A stretch of 64,000 nt of DNA from Spirochaetota bacterium. GTDB taxonomy: Bacteria > Spirochaetota > UBA4802 > UB4802. Below, in pieces: positions 32,150 to 39,452 of this stretch. The stretch lies in contig JBFLZD010000001.1 in the NCBI GenBank assembly GCA_040756435.1, forward strand, positions 62,001 through 126,000. Direction: 5' to 3'. Under the pieces are notes generated by a model that did not search any database, was not told the DNA's origin, and saw only the letters and a list, made by a program, of their open reading frames with translations. Every line of letters starts with the position of its first letter. Position 1 is the first letter of the stretch. Position numbers and translations under genes: made by a program.

Positions 32150-32296
32150 ATGTATTCTGTATTTGTTTTGATAATGGTGATTTCTTCGCTTTTGGTTCTG
32201 TTTATTTTGCCAAGAATTGAAAGTAAGCCAGATAAATACGATATCAGTAATAACTGGCAGTCAGTCTGGGAAGAGCGTTTAAAGATTGATAATTAA
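32150..32296 (+). CDS. Small membrane protein
   Basis: A 48-residue open frame. The N-terminus is one transmembrane helix (MYSVFVLIMVISSLLVLFIL) and the polar C-terminus contains NNWQSVWEERLKID. A GGGG stretch lies just upstream and a TTGACT/CGATAT promoter-like pair (32069-32097) sits about 55 bases before the ATG. The stop overlaps that of the convergent CPBP gene by 4 bases. The family is unknown. Confidence 0.45.
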   Translation: MYSVFVLIMVISSLLVLFILPRIESKPDKYDISNNWQSVWEERLKIDN

Positions 32297-32925
32297 AAGG
32301 GGAACAGGTACATAAAAATAATTGTTATTATATGTAACAATGTGGCCTGTACCAGTGATTGTACCCTGCTATAAATAAGACCTATTACTGTCCCAATAAT
32401 AAAAAATAATACTGCTAAATACAGTGAATGTGCTGCTATGCCTGGTATACTATATAACAGGGCAGCAATAACTATTCCTCCATACTTTCCAAAGAAAAAA
32501 GAAAGGTTATACTGCGCAAAACCTCTGAAAAAGAGTTCCTCACAGGGGGCTATAATTGCCACCATAATAAGCATTGATTCTAACGATTTACTGTTACCCT
32601 GATAAAAATGCAGTAGTAGAGTTGTAGGATTAAATTGCACAGCTATATTGCGAATAGGAATAAGGATAATAATCATAACAAAAAGGTAAAATATTTTTCT
32701 TTCAAAAGGGAAGTCAAAAGAAAAAATACGATCTTTAGTGAATAATCTTTCATCCAAATATTGGGCTATGATGATCAAAATAAGGAGTGTGATGCTGTAC
32801 TGATAGAGAAAAGAAAAATAGGAATAATGAATAACCCATTTTAGTAATGGATACACCAATAGCATGGGTATAAATACTTTCCAGGATGGTCTTTGCTGAG
32901 CATATGGATTATCAAGCTTAACCAT
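32293..32925 (-). CDS. CPBP-family intramembrane metalloprotease
   Basis: A protein of about 210 residues with six to eight transmembrane segments. The CPBP/Abi motifs are visible: EELFFRGF (motif 1, the two Glu and Arg), a FxxxH-like SIPGIAAHS, and the late H in TLLHIITI. This is the Rce1-like glutamic/metal protease group that works inside the membrane, sometimes in bacteriocin immunity. An ATG at 32925 is used; a TTG at 32964 would add 13 residues and cannot be excluded. Confidence 0.8.
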   Translation of the reverse strand: MVKLDNPYAQQRPSWKVFIPMLLVYPLLKWVIHYSYFSFLYQYSITLLILIIIAQYLDERLFTKDRIFSFDFPFERKIFYLFVMIIILIPIRNIAVQFNPTTLLLHFYQGNSKSLESMLIMVAIIAPCEELFFRGFAQYNLSFFFGKYGGIVIAALLYSIPGIAAHSLYLAVLFFIIGTVIGLIYSRVQSLVQATLLHIITIIFMYLFPF

Positions 32926-33088
32926 AGCAAATATATTTGTGGCAAAATGGAATTGGTCAAGCAATTAATTATGGTTTTTTATTGTTCATGAAATTTTTTT
33001 TCAAAAAAATAAAAAATTTTTACACTATTTTATAAGTTTTTTCATCTTCCAGCGTATTTATACATAAAAGACAAAAGTGGAGTTAATA

Positions 33089-34057
33089 ATGCGCTGGATA
33101 CTATTAATCTATATTTTTACACCATCGTTACTGTATGCACAATTATTAATTAATGAAATTGCATGCAATGTGTCAGGGAGTGATTGGGTTGAGCTTTTTC
33201 TTTATTCGGTTCAACCGTTGTCCATTGATATCTCTTCACTATATGTAACCATGTATTATGGTACAAATGAACCGCTTTCACAAAATCCAGTTACCATTTA
33301 TAGCTATGACAGGACGGAAACACCATGGGATGATCGGTTTGTTGTGGTACACCTGACTGATCCGTTAACTCCTGATGAATGTGATGCAACTGGAGATAGC
33401 AATGGCAATGGTGTACTTGATGTATACTGCAATAATTATAGCAGCAGTCTTTGGAATACTGACTGTGTGGTTGCCATTGATACCGATGATGACCCATCAA
33501 ATGGTGGTATCATTGATTTTGTTGCATATGCAAACAGAGATGGCAGCTTTAATCAATCTATTTTACAGTATGTTACTGCTGCAATACAGCATGGACAATG
33601 GTTGGGCACAGCATCTGAGGAGTGCATGGTTGATATAGGAAAAAATGGCCTGCAAGAATATCAGAGTATTATCCGGAAAGCAGCAGTGGATTCAAATTCA
33701 TTAGATGATTTCGTTATAACACCATATCTAACACCCGGACATACCAATATACTGCCAGTTAACCATTCTCAAAATACATTTATTAAAATAAACAGGAAGG
33801 TTGTCCTCACTAAAAGCGCTATAGAACAATGTAAAATTTTTATACTAAAGCCATGCACGCTGAGGGTACGGCTTTTTTCCTCACAGGGATACAAAATGTA
33901 TGAAAGTGAGCTTCTTTCAGCGTCACCGGGGTTTTATACTATCGATTGGGTACGGTACATAAAAAAAATGCGTTGCGGTTTGTATTTAGGAACTGTTGAG
34001 GCACAGGATAGTAAAAATCGGCAACGCGAGGAATTTTACTGTATTGTGGTTGAGTGA
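33089..34057 (+). CDS. Secreted lamin-tail-domain protein
   Basis: A 322-residue exported protein. The signal peptide (MRWILLIYIFTPSLLYAQ) is followed at once by a lamin-tail-like domain: LLINEIACNVSGSDWVELFL, then FVVVHLTDPLTPDE and FVAYANRDGSF. GDSNGNGVLDVYCN resembles a calcium-binding or dockerin-like loop. The C-terminal 90 residues look like a FlgD/secretion-type immunoglobulin domain (LRVRLFSSQGYKMYESELL). It begins a tightly coupled three-gene group with barrel proteins, so it is likely periplasmic or at the cell surface. Confidence 0.65.
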   Translation: MRWILLIYIFTPSLLYAQLLINEIACNVSGSDWVELFLYSVQPLSIDISSLYVTMYYGTNEPLSQNPVTIYSYDRTETPWDDRFVVVHLTDPLTPDECDATGDSNGNGVLDVYCNNYSSSLWNTDCVVAIDTDDDPSNGGIIDFVAYANRDGSFNQSILQYVTAAIQHGQWLGTASEECMVDIGKNGLQEYQSIIRKAAVDSNSLDDFVITPYLTPGHTNILPVNHSQNTFIKINRKVVLTKSAIEQCKIFILKPCTLRVRLFSSQGYKMYESELLSASPGFYTIDWVRYIKKMRCGLYLGTVEAQDSKNRQREEFYCIVVE

Positions 34058-35295
34058 TGGCTTCATTACTTGTTTCAGTACTGTTGATGCTACAGGCGTT
34101 TGAGACGGCTCAACCACTGGCACTTAGTGTATGGGCAATAGCTCCGGCATATCAGGCAAACCCTTCACCAATAATCTCTGGAGTAACGTATGCCAATCCT
34201 TTTGGATATCCGGACTTATATAGAACAACATCATTTATTCATACTGCAACAAATGGTTATTCGGCGGGATTACAATGGCAGTACTTTGGAATACCTGAAT
34301 ATCGTGAAGATACGGTTAGTGTTGGTGCAGGCTGGGCGATAGTTCCATGGATAAGCTTAGGCGTGGAAGTCCATGATTACATTCTTTCAATACATACAGA
34401 AGAGTATACCTATACACAAAGCTTATATGATTATGGAGTGTATTGTACCATCAAACCTTTTGACCATGTAAGCCTTTTTGTTATGCAGAATAATATCAGG
34501 AATTTTCATAATGATGGGTATATTCCTACTGAATCAATACTATCAGCACGTGTAGAAATTTTTAACGGATGTGCAATTGAATATAAATTACAGTATAGTG
34601 ATTATATCTCACAGATTTTTAAAATAAATGGCTATATTACACGGTACTGCGCAGTTGATATTGCCTATAGCAGAGAATTAAACCTATCTTCTGCCGGGAT
34701 TACTATACTGTGGGGTTCTTTTTTAATGCGGTATGAAATGAACCATCACTCCTTTTTGGGCAATACCCATAGTTTTGGATTGGTATATTCACATGCAGGG
34801 TTTATGTATGTATCTGGAGCTAAGTCTGTAAAAAAAGAAAAGCCCAAGTTAGACATACAAGTATGTACTGCTGAAGAATTAATAGGGCTTGATGTCATGT
34901 CGGAGGTATTGTGTCAGCGTATTATTAAGTATCGGTCAATGTTTGGTAATGTCAGTGTTGCGTCATTGTATCAATTGGGTTTATCAACACAGCAGATCCG
35001 TGATCTGCAACAATATACATACAATTATATTGAAGATGAAATAAGCAGAATACAAAACAATGAAAAGCAATCTTCAATAAAGCAAAATAATTATATTTCA
35101 TACGAAGAAAAAAATAGACGGATAAAAATACTTTTTCAGTCCATGGTTGCTGCTGATATACCAGCGTATATTGCCATATCTTTAGCTGAAGAATATCAGA
35201 AATCCGGAGAAAAAGGAGTATTGCAGTCACCGTTGTTTAAAAGTTTATCTTCTTTGCAACAAAAGAGAGTTAAAACAGCATGCGGAATGCAGTGA
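34057..35295 (+). CDS. Outer-membrane barrel-like protein with ComEA-type helix-hairpin-helix domain
   Basis: A 412-residue protein with a signal peptide (1-20). A strand-rich barrel-like part (about 20-255, alternating hydrophobic residues and aromatics) is followed by a helix-hairpin-helix pair of ComEA type: LDIQVCTAEELIGLDVMSE to QRIIKYRSMFGNVSVASLYQ (about 267-315). A helical, Gln-rich tail follows. ComEA-type domains bind double-stranded DNA outside the inner membrane. The ATG at 34057 overlaps the previous stop; a GTG at 34054 is an alternative. The fusion with a barrel is unusual. Confidence 0.55.
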   Translation: MASLLVSVLLMLQAFETAQPLALSVWAIAPAYQANPSPIISGVTYANPFGYPDLYRTTSFIHTATNGYSAGLQWQYFGIPEYREDTVSVGAGWAIVPWISLGVEVHDYILSIHTEEYTYTQSLYDYGVYCTIKPFDHVSLFVMQNNIRNFHNDGYIPTESILSARVEIFNGCAIEYKLQYSDYISQIFKINGYITRYCAVDIAYSRELNLSSAGITILWGSFLMRYEMNHHSFLGNTHSFGLVYSHAGFMYVSGAKSVKKEKPKLDIQVCTAEELIGLDVMSEVLCQRIIKYRSMFGNVSVASLYQLGLSTQQIRDLQQYTYNYIEDEISRIQNNEKQSSIKQNNYISYEEKNRRIKILFQSMVAADIPAYIAISLAEEYQKSGEKGVLQSPLFKSLSSLQQKRVKTACGMQ

Positions 35296-36830
35296 TACTA
35301 TGGTTATATGTATATCTTGGTATAATGTTGCAGACACAAGCAATAGCTTTACAGAGTATATCCGTTGAATACAGACAGGATGCTCTGGATTATGGTGTGG
35401 AAAAAGAACATTACCTCCGCACCACTGTGACAATAGCAACAGATACCACAGAAGTAAATGCAGCAGTTGTACAATCACATGGTACAAAACATGCCACATG
35501 GTCATTTTCAGCTCAGGGTGACTATGCTGCAATTTCAGGTGGATATTATTTTATTAACAATGCCACCGGGTTGTTATTGGGAAAAGCTTCTGTGTATAAC
35601 CCGGATCCCTATTCCATTCATGTTCAAAAACATGATGCATTCATATCATTATGTAAAAGTGGCAATCCACAGTATGCTATGTATGGGGTGGTTTCATCAT
35701 TATTTAATGCAAGATGCTCATCTACCATAAAACTGGATGCAGGAGTTTCATATAAAGAATGTTATATTTCACCTGCTGATGCTCAAAATGGTGTATACCC
35801 ATACAGTGTCCAGAGCTTACTATCACACTTTAAAAGGGAAGGACAATATACTGAACCAGTACAGATTATTACATCGTTTGTGCATGCAACCGTTAATCCT
35901 GCTGAGTATGTAACTTTACAGGGATGTTATTATTATACACATATATATTATAATAATGCACACATATTATTCAATGCAAATACACAGGATAATTATGCAA
36001 TGGAATCATTTGGTGGGTACAGTCTGTATGCACACTATCAGGACAGTATTGTATCACTTTTTTCGGAATATGCTGTTTCACGTGTTTTGATAAAAAATGA
36101 AGGTAAATCGGGAGATAGATATAGTAAAGCATATTATTGTGGGGTATTGGTTAAAGACAAAAATTATAAAATCAGCAGTATTGTACAAAAGTCAGATAAA
36201 AACTTTTATGCCCCATTTGGCAATACATTTGGGGGAAATTCGCCACGCGATATTTATTATTATTTTGTCAGTGTTAAACCTGTAAAAAAGTTTGCATGTT
36301 CATGGATATATATAGACCAGAATAACCTTCTACCATCCACGTATTATACTGAATATCCACACAAACGTATTCATACTTTGCGTATGGTATATAAAAACAA
36401 AAATTTTTCTGTTAAATCGGATTATCGTTATGCACAGTTTTATAAAGGTGGGGAAGAAAAGGCATCACGATATCAGGAGGGTGTTAGATGGGGAATAACA
36501 AAAAACTCATCAATACATCTTAAATGTGGGTTGTATCAGGGGGATACTGTCGCATGGTATGTTGCATCAGGTATTGGCATAAAAGTTGGCAATCTGCAAA
36601 ATGATTTTGGATCAGTTTATGCTCATACCAATGGCGAAAAAATATATGTAGCAATGCTTCCGCTCCCACAAACAAATATTATTTCAGATACTATCGCCGC
36701 ATCCTCATTTTTTATTGTTGCACGCTTTCGTTTCAGTAATACATTTTGTAAGCTGTCAGCTCGATTAGTTATGCAGCTACAACCCCAAAAACAATCGACA
36801 GGGGAAGTTGGAGCAGCAGTGTGGTTTTAA
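35280..36830 (+). CDS. Outer-membrane beta-barrel-like protein
   Basis: A 516-residue protein that overlaps the preceding gene by 16 bases. It has a signal peptide (ending TQAIALQ, about 27) and then strands throughout. GDYAAISGGYYFINNATGLL (about 80-99) and similar segments resemble the barrel part of large helix-hairpin-helix outer-membrane proteins known from Bacteroidota. Together with the previous gene it could be a split form of such a protein. A final aromatic-rich strand ending VWF fits the C-terminal barrel signal. Confidence 0.5.
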   Translation: MRNAVILWLYVYLGIMLQTQAIALQSISVEYRQDALDYGVEKEHYLRTTVTIATDTTEVNAAVVQSHGTKHATWSFSAQGDYAAISGGYYFINNATGLLLGKASVYNPDPYSIHVQKHDAFISLCKSGNPQYAMYGVVSSLFNARCSSTIKLDAGVSYKECYISPADAQNGVYPYSVQSLLSHFKREGQYTEPVQIITSFVHATVNPAEYVTLQGCYYYTHIYYNNAHILFNANTQDNYAMESFGGYSLYAHYQDSIVSLFSEYAVSRVLIKNEGKSGDRYSKAYYCGVLVKDKNYKISSIVQKSDKNFYAPFGNTFGGNSPRDIYYYFVSVKPVKKFACSWIYIDQNNLLPSTYYTEYPHKRIHTLRMVYKNKNFSVKSDYRYAQFYKGGEEKASRYQEGVRWGITKNSSIHLKCGLYQGDTVAWYVASGIGIKVGNLQNDFGSVYAHTNGEKIYVAMLPLPQTNIISDTIAASSFFIVARFRFSNTFCKLSARLVMQLQPQKQSTGEVGAAVWF

Positions 36831-38381: not shown

Positions 38382-39452
38382 GTGAAGAAGTCAGCTATTT
38401 ACATAGTAGTATTATTTTGTATTTTTAAACTATCATGTACAACCCCTGAGGAACGAATCCCCAAATATTCTATAGCAACTTCTTCTGGCTATGGCATGCT
38501 GTTTATTGGCGATATGATGTTTGAATGGGCAGTAAAAGATATAATGCAGCGCTATGGTACAGATTATCCATTAAAGAAAGTTAAACCCTTTTTCCAATCT
38601 TTTGATTTTGTAATGGCAAATTTGGAATCACCATTAACAAATAACAGAACAAGTTTGGTATATCAAAAATATATTTTTAAAGCACCGCCTTCAATTGCAT
38701 TTGTTATAGCTGATGCTGGTATTACAGCAGTTACTCTGGCAAATAATCATATGCTTGATTATGGTGGTACAGGATTATTGGATACATTGACTTCTTTATC
38801 TGATGCAAAGGTACTCTATGCTGGAGCAGGGAAAAACGAAACAACAGCATCTTTGCCGGTTATGCATCAGTTGGGGCCAGCACGCATTGCTGTGTTATGT
38901 TATACTCAGATTTCCTCAAAGGAAATGATTGCAAAAAATAATCCAGGTATAAATTTCTTTGAATTAAAGAAAGCTCAAAGTGATATTAAGAAGTATCGCT
39001 TCTGCGATAGTGTTATTATTAATATTCATTGGGGTAATGAATACTTTTACTACCCTTCATCAAAACAGATTGATATAGCCCATGCACTCATTAATGCCGG
39101 TGCGGATGCTATTATTGGTCATCATCCACATGTGTATCAAGGAATTGAAATATATAAAAATAAACCGGTTATCTACTCACTGGGAAATTTTCTTTTTGGC
39201 TCTATGCATGAAGGAATTAATGATAATATTGCCTGTGCACTGTACATGTCGGGAAACGGGAAAATTATTAAGATGCACATTTATGCAATCAAAGGAATAT
39301 ATACTGATGGAATTATACAGCCTGAAGTGTTAGAGGGGCCTTCGGCTATAAAAGTCTTTGATCATGTTCTTGAGATTTCAAAACCACTGGGTATTATTTT
39401 TACCAGCAGAACTACAAAACACAATAATTATGCTGAATTTATTTTCAGGTAA
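38382..39452 (+). CDS. CapA-family lipoprotein
   Basis: A 356-residue calcineurin-like metallophosphatase of the CapA/PgsA family. It starts with GTG and has a lipoprotein signal (VVLFCIFKLSCTTPE, lipid on Cys 19). Motifs are LFIGDMMFE (about 44), ANLESPLTNNRT, LANNHMLDYGG, NIHWGNEY and GHHPHVYQG. Family members are linked to poly-gamma-glutamate capsule anchoring or wall polymer processing, but no other capsule gene lies here. Confidence 0.85.
   Translation: MKKSAIYIVVLFCIFKLSCTTPEERIPKYSIATSSGYGMLFIGDMMFEWAVKDIMQRYGTDYPLKKVKPFFQSFDFVMANLESPLTNNRTSLVYQKYIFKAPPSIAFVIADAGITAVTLANNHMLDYGGTGLLDTLTSLSDAKVLYAGAGKNETTASLPVMHQLGPARIAVLCYTQISSKEMIAKNNPGINFFELKKAQSDIKKYRFCDSVIINIHWGNEYFYYPSSKQIDIAHALINAGADAIIGHHPHVYQGIEIYKNKPVIYSLGNFLFGSMHEGINDNIACALYMSGNGKIIKMHIYAIKGIYTDGIIQPEVLEGPSAIKVFDHVLEISKPLGIIFTSRTTKHNNYAEFIFR

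Follow-up and report, generated by a model that had tools for sequence, protein, structure and literature searches.

A conserved three-gene envelope block of Spirochaetota with an LTD-like protein, a probable PorV-like barrel bearing a ComEA-type tail, and a second candidate barrel

The crossing of the outer membrane by DNA without competence pili is an open question. In Riemerella anatipestifer, a helix-hairpin-helix (HhH) protein and a pair made of a surface protein and an outer-membrane barrel, the locations of the pair being predicted, are reported to be essential for transformation, and these essential parts have no homology to known transformation machinery (PMC8459023). Here, we describe a block of three genes in the window, a 64,000-nucleotide stretch of the genome of a Spirochaetota bacterium (GenBank assembly GCA_040756435.1, contig JBFLZD010000001.1, positions 62,001 to 126,000). 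Gene 1 encodes a predicted exported protein with remote homology to lamin-tail domain (LTD) proteins, gene 2 a likely PorV-type barrel followed by an HhH region of the ComEA type, and gene 3 a second likely barrel. The block is real and conserved and, so far as searched, is undescribed as a block: none was seen among the titles and abstract beginnings listed by searches of open PMC papers, a scope that does not extend to subscription papers and preprints. The trio is a compact, conserved and genetically testable candidate, and it connects an HhH-barrel of the Bacteroidota, so far little characterised, with an LTD protein and a carrier of the PorV type.

Several described systems resemble parts of this block. 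The Riemerella genes (RA0C_RS04920, RS04915 and RS02645) are alike in logic, with a predicted surface protein, a barrel and an HhH protein, but as described they have other domain types, and by locus number the HhH gene lies outside the barrel operon (PMC8459023). In secreted DNases of halophiles, LTD and duplicate HhH are the two types of extra domain, which the authors assume to bind DNA; LTD and HhH are alternative add-on domains there (PMC4486849), whereas the trio has no nuclease domain. In the Bacteroidota, cargos with a Type B C-terminal domain (CTD) are often gene-linked to PorP/SprF-type shuttles (PMC12618676, PMC9143113), and PorV binds cargo CTDs within the SprA translocon (PMC10994853). 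The type IX secretion system (T9SS) was found only in Bacteroidetes in a 2016 survey (PMC4793230).

The HhH of gene 2, and that of gene 3 in distant families (termed remote below), fall in the same HHH_3 group as ComEA. Unlike ComEA, however, gene 2 has its HhH fused behind a PorV-like barrel, its hairpins are degenerate in the order to which the window's genome belongs, and comEC is not near it in that genome. The barrel of remote gene 2 resembles PorV and PorQ of the T9SS, yet gene 2 bears an HhH tail, and the window protein has no match to the PorV_fam model. The HhH protein of the Bacteroidota is a homologue of remote gene 3, whereas the window's gene 3 has no HhH.

The block is kept throughout the order. 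The whole trio is adjacent in 39 of 41 order loci, and contig ends cut the other two (L038 and L064). The 39 include loci in which a contig end cuts gene 1 (L059 and L065) or gene 3 (L062), one with an interrupted gene 3 (L035) and one with a shortened gene 2 frame (L139). Among 35 order loci (the window and 34 others), gene 2 is present in 35, an adjoining gene 3 in 34 and an upstream gene 1 in 34; four copies of gene 1 missed by the open reading frame (ORF) caller were recovered by tblastn. Six further order genomes (L139–L144) all have the trio. The three frames of the window are all on the forward strand, with ends overlapping by 4 and 16 bases. The overlap between genes 1 and 2 is 4 bases in 17 of the 30 loci measured, and that between genes 2 and 3 is 13–25 bases in 28 of 33. 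Of 39 genomes searched for gene 2, 35 have a single match, the window's own among them. The flanks of the block vary and form many clusters or singletons; no relative exists in the set for 12 of 26 neighbours on the upstream side and for 9 of 32 on the downstream side. Since the block persists throughout the order and its neighbours change, the trio is not a product of chance. Alignments A1, A2 and A3 comprise 23, 25 and 27 rows, with over-extended starts and cut or missed frames left out, and A6–A8 comprise 6, 6 and 9 hand-picked remote proteins.

Across 296 sampled Spirochaetota genomes, strong matches to gene 1 (E≤1.1e-90) occur in 40 and to gene 2 (E≤5.5e-107) in 41, and all of them fall among the order's 46 genomes. 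The five members without a strong gene 2 match are G005, G024 and G212, which are 66–72% complete, and G007 and G016, which belong to the same genus and are 97% and 89% complete; the last two look like losses of the block. Beyond the order, the same block with the same gene order recurs in five loci of four distant Spirochaetota families (L127, L129, L136, L137 and L165), with the LTD match of L165 below the cut-off. At other remote loci, the first place is taken by a protein with a weak FlgD_ig match (L128; E 1e-4, below cut-off), or genes 2 and 3 are preceded by a short frame that appears FlgD-like by eye (L130), or only genes 2 and 3 are found (L164), or gene 3 stands at a contig end (L170). 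In another Spirochaetota family, a lone HhH-barrel of 596 residues (L172:4764-6554) was observed, with genes 1 and 2 unseen within 10 kb. A sequence-only reading of the window had described a touching or overlapping three-gene set that is not a standard competence cluster, and had named conserved synteny beforehand as its test. The overlaps and the recurrence of the block within and beyond the order agree with this description, and no standard competence cluster sits at the locus.

Gene 1 begins with a signal-like segment, directly followed by an LTD-type “LLINEI..DWVEL” stretch, both recognized by eye. With a limit of E≤0.1, the Pfam LTD model (PF00932) matches none of the 23 order proteins. 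In a profile-profile comparison, the order gene 1 profile matches six remote gene 1 proteins with a probability of 97.4% (E 1e-11), and five of these six are above the Pfam LTD cut-off. Through this comparison with the remote profile, gene 1 can be placed as a remote homologue of LTD proteins. Its C-terminal part is basic (pI 10.1). The remote gene 1 proteins also match FlgD_ig (one above cut-off) as well as Por_Secre_tail and CHU_C (both below cut-off), and CHU_C matches the order proteins weakly, in 2 of 23 members. Gene 1 is the best conserved of the trio, with a mean identity of 47% (over 18 rows outside the genus) compared to 22% and 19% for the two barrels. A GD.N.NG loop, which we take to resemble a calcium loop, is kept in 23 of 23 members.

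PorV is a solved outer-membrane barrel. The curated PorV_fam model has no match in the window's gene 2 and is also not among the families matched by 25 order members. The order gene 2 profile, however, matches that of remote gene 2 with a probability of 99.9% (E 4e-36), and PorV_fam matches remote gene 2 below its cut-off in 4 of 4 proteins tested, with a best E of 4e-16 and best scores of 59.6 and 52.1 bits compared to a cut-off of 90. In addition, the remote gene 2 profile weakly finds the solved PorV structure 6h3i. The barrel of gene 2 is thus likely homologous to PorV barrels, transitively through the remote members.

The HhH region of gene 2 is recognized at the level of the family. HHH_3 matches the window protein at E 0.024, below the cut-off; with E≤0.1 as the limit, however, it matches 23 of the 25 proteins from the order (best 3e-9), and the comEA model matches 11 of 25 at the same threshold. 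In the remote versions, HHH_3 is above its cut-off in 6 of 6 tested gene 2 proteins that have an HhH (L127–L130, L136 and L164), with E down to 7e-35. The comEA model reaches 1e-29 there, below its cut-off, and the ComEA repeat model TIGR00426 is above its cut-off in three of four tested (L127–L129). Solved ComEA is found by the order and remote gene 2 profiles and by the remote gene 3 profile; among solved HhH proteins, the best match of the gene 2 profile is EEPD1 (E 4e-12), followed by ComEA (best E 7e-6). These matches place the gene 2 tail as a ComEA-type HhH at the family level only. On average, the C-terminal region is basic in the gene 2 proteins of the order, with a mean pI of 8.9 (range 5.7–10.6) and a net charge of +5.6. 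Canonical hairpins are clear in the alignment of gene 2 of L127 and L128. When remote gene 2 was compared with plasmids, only its ComEA-type regions were matched, with no record covering 80% of the query.

Gene 3 is a likely barrel. Its last residue is aromatic in 25 of 33 order members (F in 22) compared to 30 of 252 neighbouring ORFs. These 33 include cut or interrupted proteins, such as those of L062 and L035, and exclude L038, which lies at a contig end, and L046, which the single-sequence search missed and the profile found. A home-made measure of amphipathic-strand excess gives gene 3 a mean z of 0.94, compared to -0.59 for 131 neighbours, and z exceeds 2 in 8 of 33 gene 3 proteins compared to 3 of 131 neighbours. 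The measure is weak, because the barrel part of gene 2 scores only 0.27 (0 of 35 over 2), while gene 1 scores 0.30. The gene 3 profile has no meaningful match among solved structures. In a congener, gene 3 is interrupted (L035:4694-6260, in frames of 110 and 384 residues), by decay or assembly error.

The order gene 3 profile matches that of remote gene 3 with a probability of 99.2% (E 2e-19). HHH_3 is above its cut-off in 8 of 9 remote gene 3 proteins tested, with L136 below, while the window's gene 3 has no HhH match in the Pfam and NCBIfam scan. Because the match between order and remote proteins begins after the remote HhH region, the window's gene 3 lacks an HhH, which is most simply explained by loss in this order. 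Among 72,556 plasmid records, gene 3 of L127 has four relatives, found in Bacteroides, Parabacteroides, Phocaeicola and Prevotella, at 22–23% identity; the alignment spans 81% of the query for three of them and 61% for the fourth. Two of the records have no annotation at this place. In the two annotated Bacteroidales records, the relative is about 680 residues long and is labelled “helix-hairpin-helix domain-containing protein”; in the incomplete gene tables of these records, no annotated LTD or PorV gene adjoins it. By these alignments, remote gene 3 is a homologue of the Bacteroidota “helix-hairpin-helix domain-containing” barrel.

These results bear on the remaining claims of the earlier reading. 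It had called gene 1 a lamin-tail protein, which the remote homology upholds even though Pfam LTD itself finds none of the order members; the fusion of a ComEA-type HhH to a barrel-like protein is borne out by the family-level matches and the PorV homology; and a second barrel is made likely by the aromatic ends and the modest amphipathic-strand excess. It had also suggested that a single Bacteroidota protein with HhH and barrel parts may be split here. The homologue exists, as gene 3, but it is not simply split, since the profiles of genes 2 and 3 show no convincing mutual match (9% probability) and remote families carry both as HhH-barrels. The pair is better read as a PorV-like HhH-barrel beside an HhH-barrel, the second of which appears to have lost its HhH in this order.

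Searches elsewhere in the genomes concern the genes with which such a block might work. ComEC occurs in 285 of the 296 Spirochaetota, including the window's genome, where it has 641 residues and a Competence domain; a phyletic link between the block and ComEC was considered and set aside as uninformative for this reason. DprA occurs in 39 of 39 relatives searched. In the window's genome, the listed HHH_3 matches (E≤0.11) include no ORF below 250 residues, with none at all at E≤0.001. At E≤1 there are seven matches, and the five listed are ORFs of 553, 387, 445 and 1175 residues and gene 2 itself; the 387-residue ORF is probably GspK, because its relative in G003 sits 6 kb from a secretin. Of 31 order genomes, 2 have a short HHH_3 ORF (<250 residues) at E≤0.001, namely G011 and, as a fragment at a contig edge, G002; a few weaker ones are present in G012 and G038 (E 0.014–0.08). 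Across the phylum, PF12836 matches many large ORFs of 700–890 residues, which we take to be Tex, so that PF12836 is no measure of ComEA alone. At another locus, a 344-residue protein (L167:4133-5167) has a C-terminal HhH and a start that is metallo-beta-lactamase-like by eye; it is possibly a secreted ComEC-like hydrolase.

Secretins were found in 34 of 39 genomes, with exactly one match in 32 of these, and in the window's genome the only one found is part of a cluster that resembles a type II secretion system (T2SS), with GspD-E-F and ORFs of pseudopilin type. The same genome has, on contig C28 outside the window, an SprA-like ORF of 1876 residues ending in ..FSLLF (L183:5086-10716), which TIGR04189 matches at E 3e-21, below its cut-off, and Pfam SprA does not match. 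SprA-like matches, mostly of about 1,800–2,300 residues, occur in 82 of 296 Spirochaetota, 42 of which are among the order's 46 genomes, with others outside it, and in 5 of the 9 remote genomes that have gene 3, alone or with more of the block. None of the 296 genomes has a match above the curated SprA cut-off (200 bits), in a search that had no positive control among 14 named genomes. These ORFs represent a possible T9SS-like translocon outside the Bacteroidota.

The reading that we place first, and hold tentatively, is that the trio is an outer-membrane complex built around a secreted cargo and its carrier, which captures and probably imports extracellular DNA. We infer its localisation, complex formation, pore, DNA binding and DNA import from sequence. 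Given the Bacteroidota precedents and the SprA-like matches, genes 1 and 2 may be cargo and carrier, a view that may be combined with DNA uptake or stand alone. Gene 1 would be exported and stay at the surface, where its Ig/CTD-like C-terminal part would attach it to the PorV-like barrel of gene 2. As the HhH tail comes after the last strand of that barrel, it is expected in the periplasm, where, like ComEA, it would ratchet DNA inwards. Gene 3 would be the partner barrel and candidate pore, and in sister families its own N-terminal HhH would likewise be expected in the periplasm. The DNA would then be handed on to ComEC and DprA. The more specific proposal of a pilus-independent DNA importer, evolved from a T9SS-type cargo/carrier pair with an LTD receptor outside, a ComEA ratchet inside and a pore barrel that has a second ComEA-type ratchet in sister lineages, we regard as rather unlikely. 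Were it true, this family of pores would also offer, on its own, a candidate for the way in which DNA crosses the outer membrane in the Bacteroidota.

A number of observations weigh against DNA capture and import. The LTD half of gene 1 is strongly acidic (mean pI 4.1, net charge -19), unlike a plain DNA binder. The canonical DNA-contacting hairpin motif of HhH domains is G-h-G, and by a crude pattern this hairpin is present in 3 of 25 order gene 2 tails, 2 of 9 remote gene 3 N-termini and 3 of 6 remote gene 2 tails (one of these is that of L137, which has no HhH); remote gene 2 of G174 lacks an HhH. In the alignment, the hairpins are lost in the window's gene 2, whose tail carries a net charge of just +3; the tail of one member of the order is acidic. 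The degenerate hairpins and the acidic LTD half make a direct DNA role less likely, particularly in this order. HhH is also a protein-protein domain, and these searches retrieve GspK and PsbU as well. The ComEC gene of the window's genome is on another contig, unlinked to the block, and has no Lactamase_B match. ComEC is near-universal in the phylum, so its co-occurrence with the block says little, and G007 and G016, which have neither the block nor a short HHH_3 ORF among the matches listed, keep ComEC and DprA. The T2SS secretin is another possible outer-membrane route. AlphaFold2 models from three rows (window, L031 and L032) have a pLDDT of 35.2 for gene 2 and 28.5 for gene 3; within the low-confidence gene 2 model, the tail is helical, with pLDDT 57–85 in that block.

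A surface complex without DNA ranks almost level with DNA uptake and is likewise a tentative reading. Here, the trio would be a T9SS-like surface system with gene 1 as CTD cargo, gene 2 as PorV-type carrier or anchor and gene 3 as partner barrel, and the HhH tail would be a periplasmic protein-interaction or scaffold domain. The PorV-like barrel, the FlgD_ig, Por_Secre_tail and CHU_C matches of remote gene 1, the weak CHU_C matches in the order, and the Bacteroidota precedents of gene-linked cargos and PorV-CTD binding (PMC12618676, PMC9143113, PMC10994853), are consistent with such a system, and the degenerate hairpins and acidic LTD suit a role other than DNA binding. The SprA-like ORFs, all below the curated cut-off, point the same way, but many genomes that lack the block have them too, 4 of the 9 remote genomes yielded none, and the search had no positive control. 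Moreover, this explanation does not by itself account for the ComEA-type HhH that gene 2 bears, whose hairpins are canonical at least in L127 and L128, or for an HhH on the gene 3 of sister families. It is improbable, though not negligibly so, that the complex serves DNA foraging or adhesion, with the LTD protein binding a matrix ligand (calcium-bound DNA, polysaccharide or protein) for attachment or nutrition and no import of long DNA. The far better conservation of gene 1 and its invariant GD.N.NG loop suggest that its ligand is probably conserved, yet the block has no enzyme or nuclease gene, and a periplasmic HhH would be idle. Very improbable is a fortuitous set of three unrelated envelope genes behind a common promoter. 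That gene 1 is missing in some remote families, and in others gene 3 stands alone, would fit such a set, whereas order-wide adjacency, overlapping ends, changing flanks and recurrence in four other families argue against it. A mobile-element origin was also considered and rejected, gene 1 having no plasmid match and gene 2 being matched once per genome.

Table 1. Features of the block and annotated neighbours, in window positions
Feature	Position	Strand	Remarks
Gene 1, exported LTD-like protein, 322 aa	33089..34057	+	Acidic LTD-like N-terminal half, basic Ig/CTD-like C-terminal part
Likely signal peptide of gene 1	33089..33139	+	Read by eye; ..LLYA, then QLLINEI
Gene 2, PorV-like barrel and C-terminal ComEA-type HhH region, 413 aa	34054..35295	+	
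Start of gene 2	34054 or 34057		GTG at 34054 or ATG at 34057
PorV-like barrel part of gene 2, about residues 18-255	34105..34818	+	Profile-profile match to remote members
ComEA-type HhH domain of gene 2, about residues 263-330	34840..35043	+	Canonical G-h-G hairpins lost
Helical tail of gene 2, about residues 351-413	35104..35292	+	Aligns with second HhH unit of remote members
Gene 3, second barrel-like protein, 516 aa	35280..36830	+	Ends ..GAAVWF
4-base overlap	34054..34057	+	Gene 1 stop and gene 2 start
16-base overlap	35280..35295	+	Gene 2 end and gene 3 start
CPBP glutamic-type intramembrane protease (Rce1-like)	32293..32964	-	Divergent, directly upstream; MrtS model below cut-off
PGA_cap protein	38382..39452		E 2e-73; NCBIfam lasso-peptide epimerase MslH model far below cut-off

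In scans with Pfam and NCBIfam, none of the three window proteins matches above a cut-off. A promoter scan found 16 candidates compared to a shuffle mean of 21.5, and a terminator scan 0 compared to a mean of 2.0, so nothing rises above the shuffles. On the 3′ side, the block is followed by LarE, then a glycosyltransferase and the PGA_cap protein. On the 5′ side, the cluster of the CPBP protease lies upstream of the block in 8 of 26 loci.

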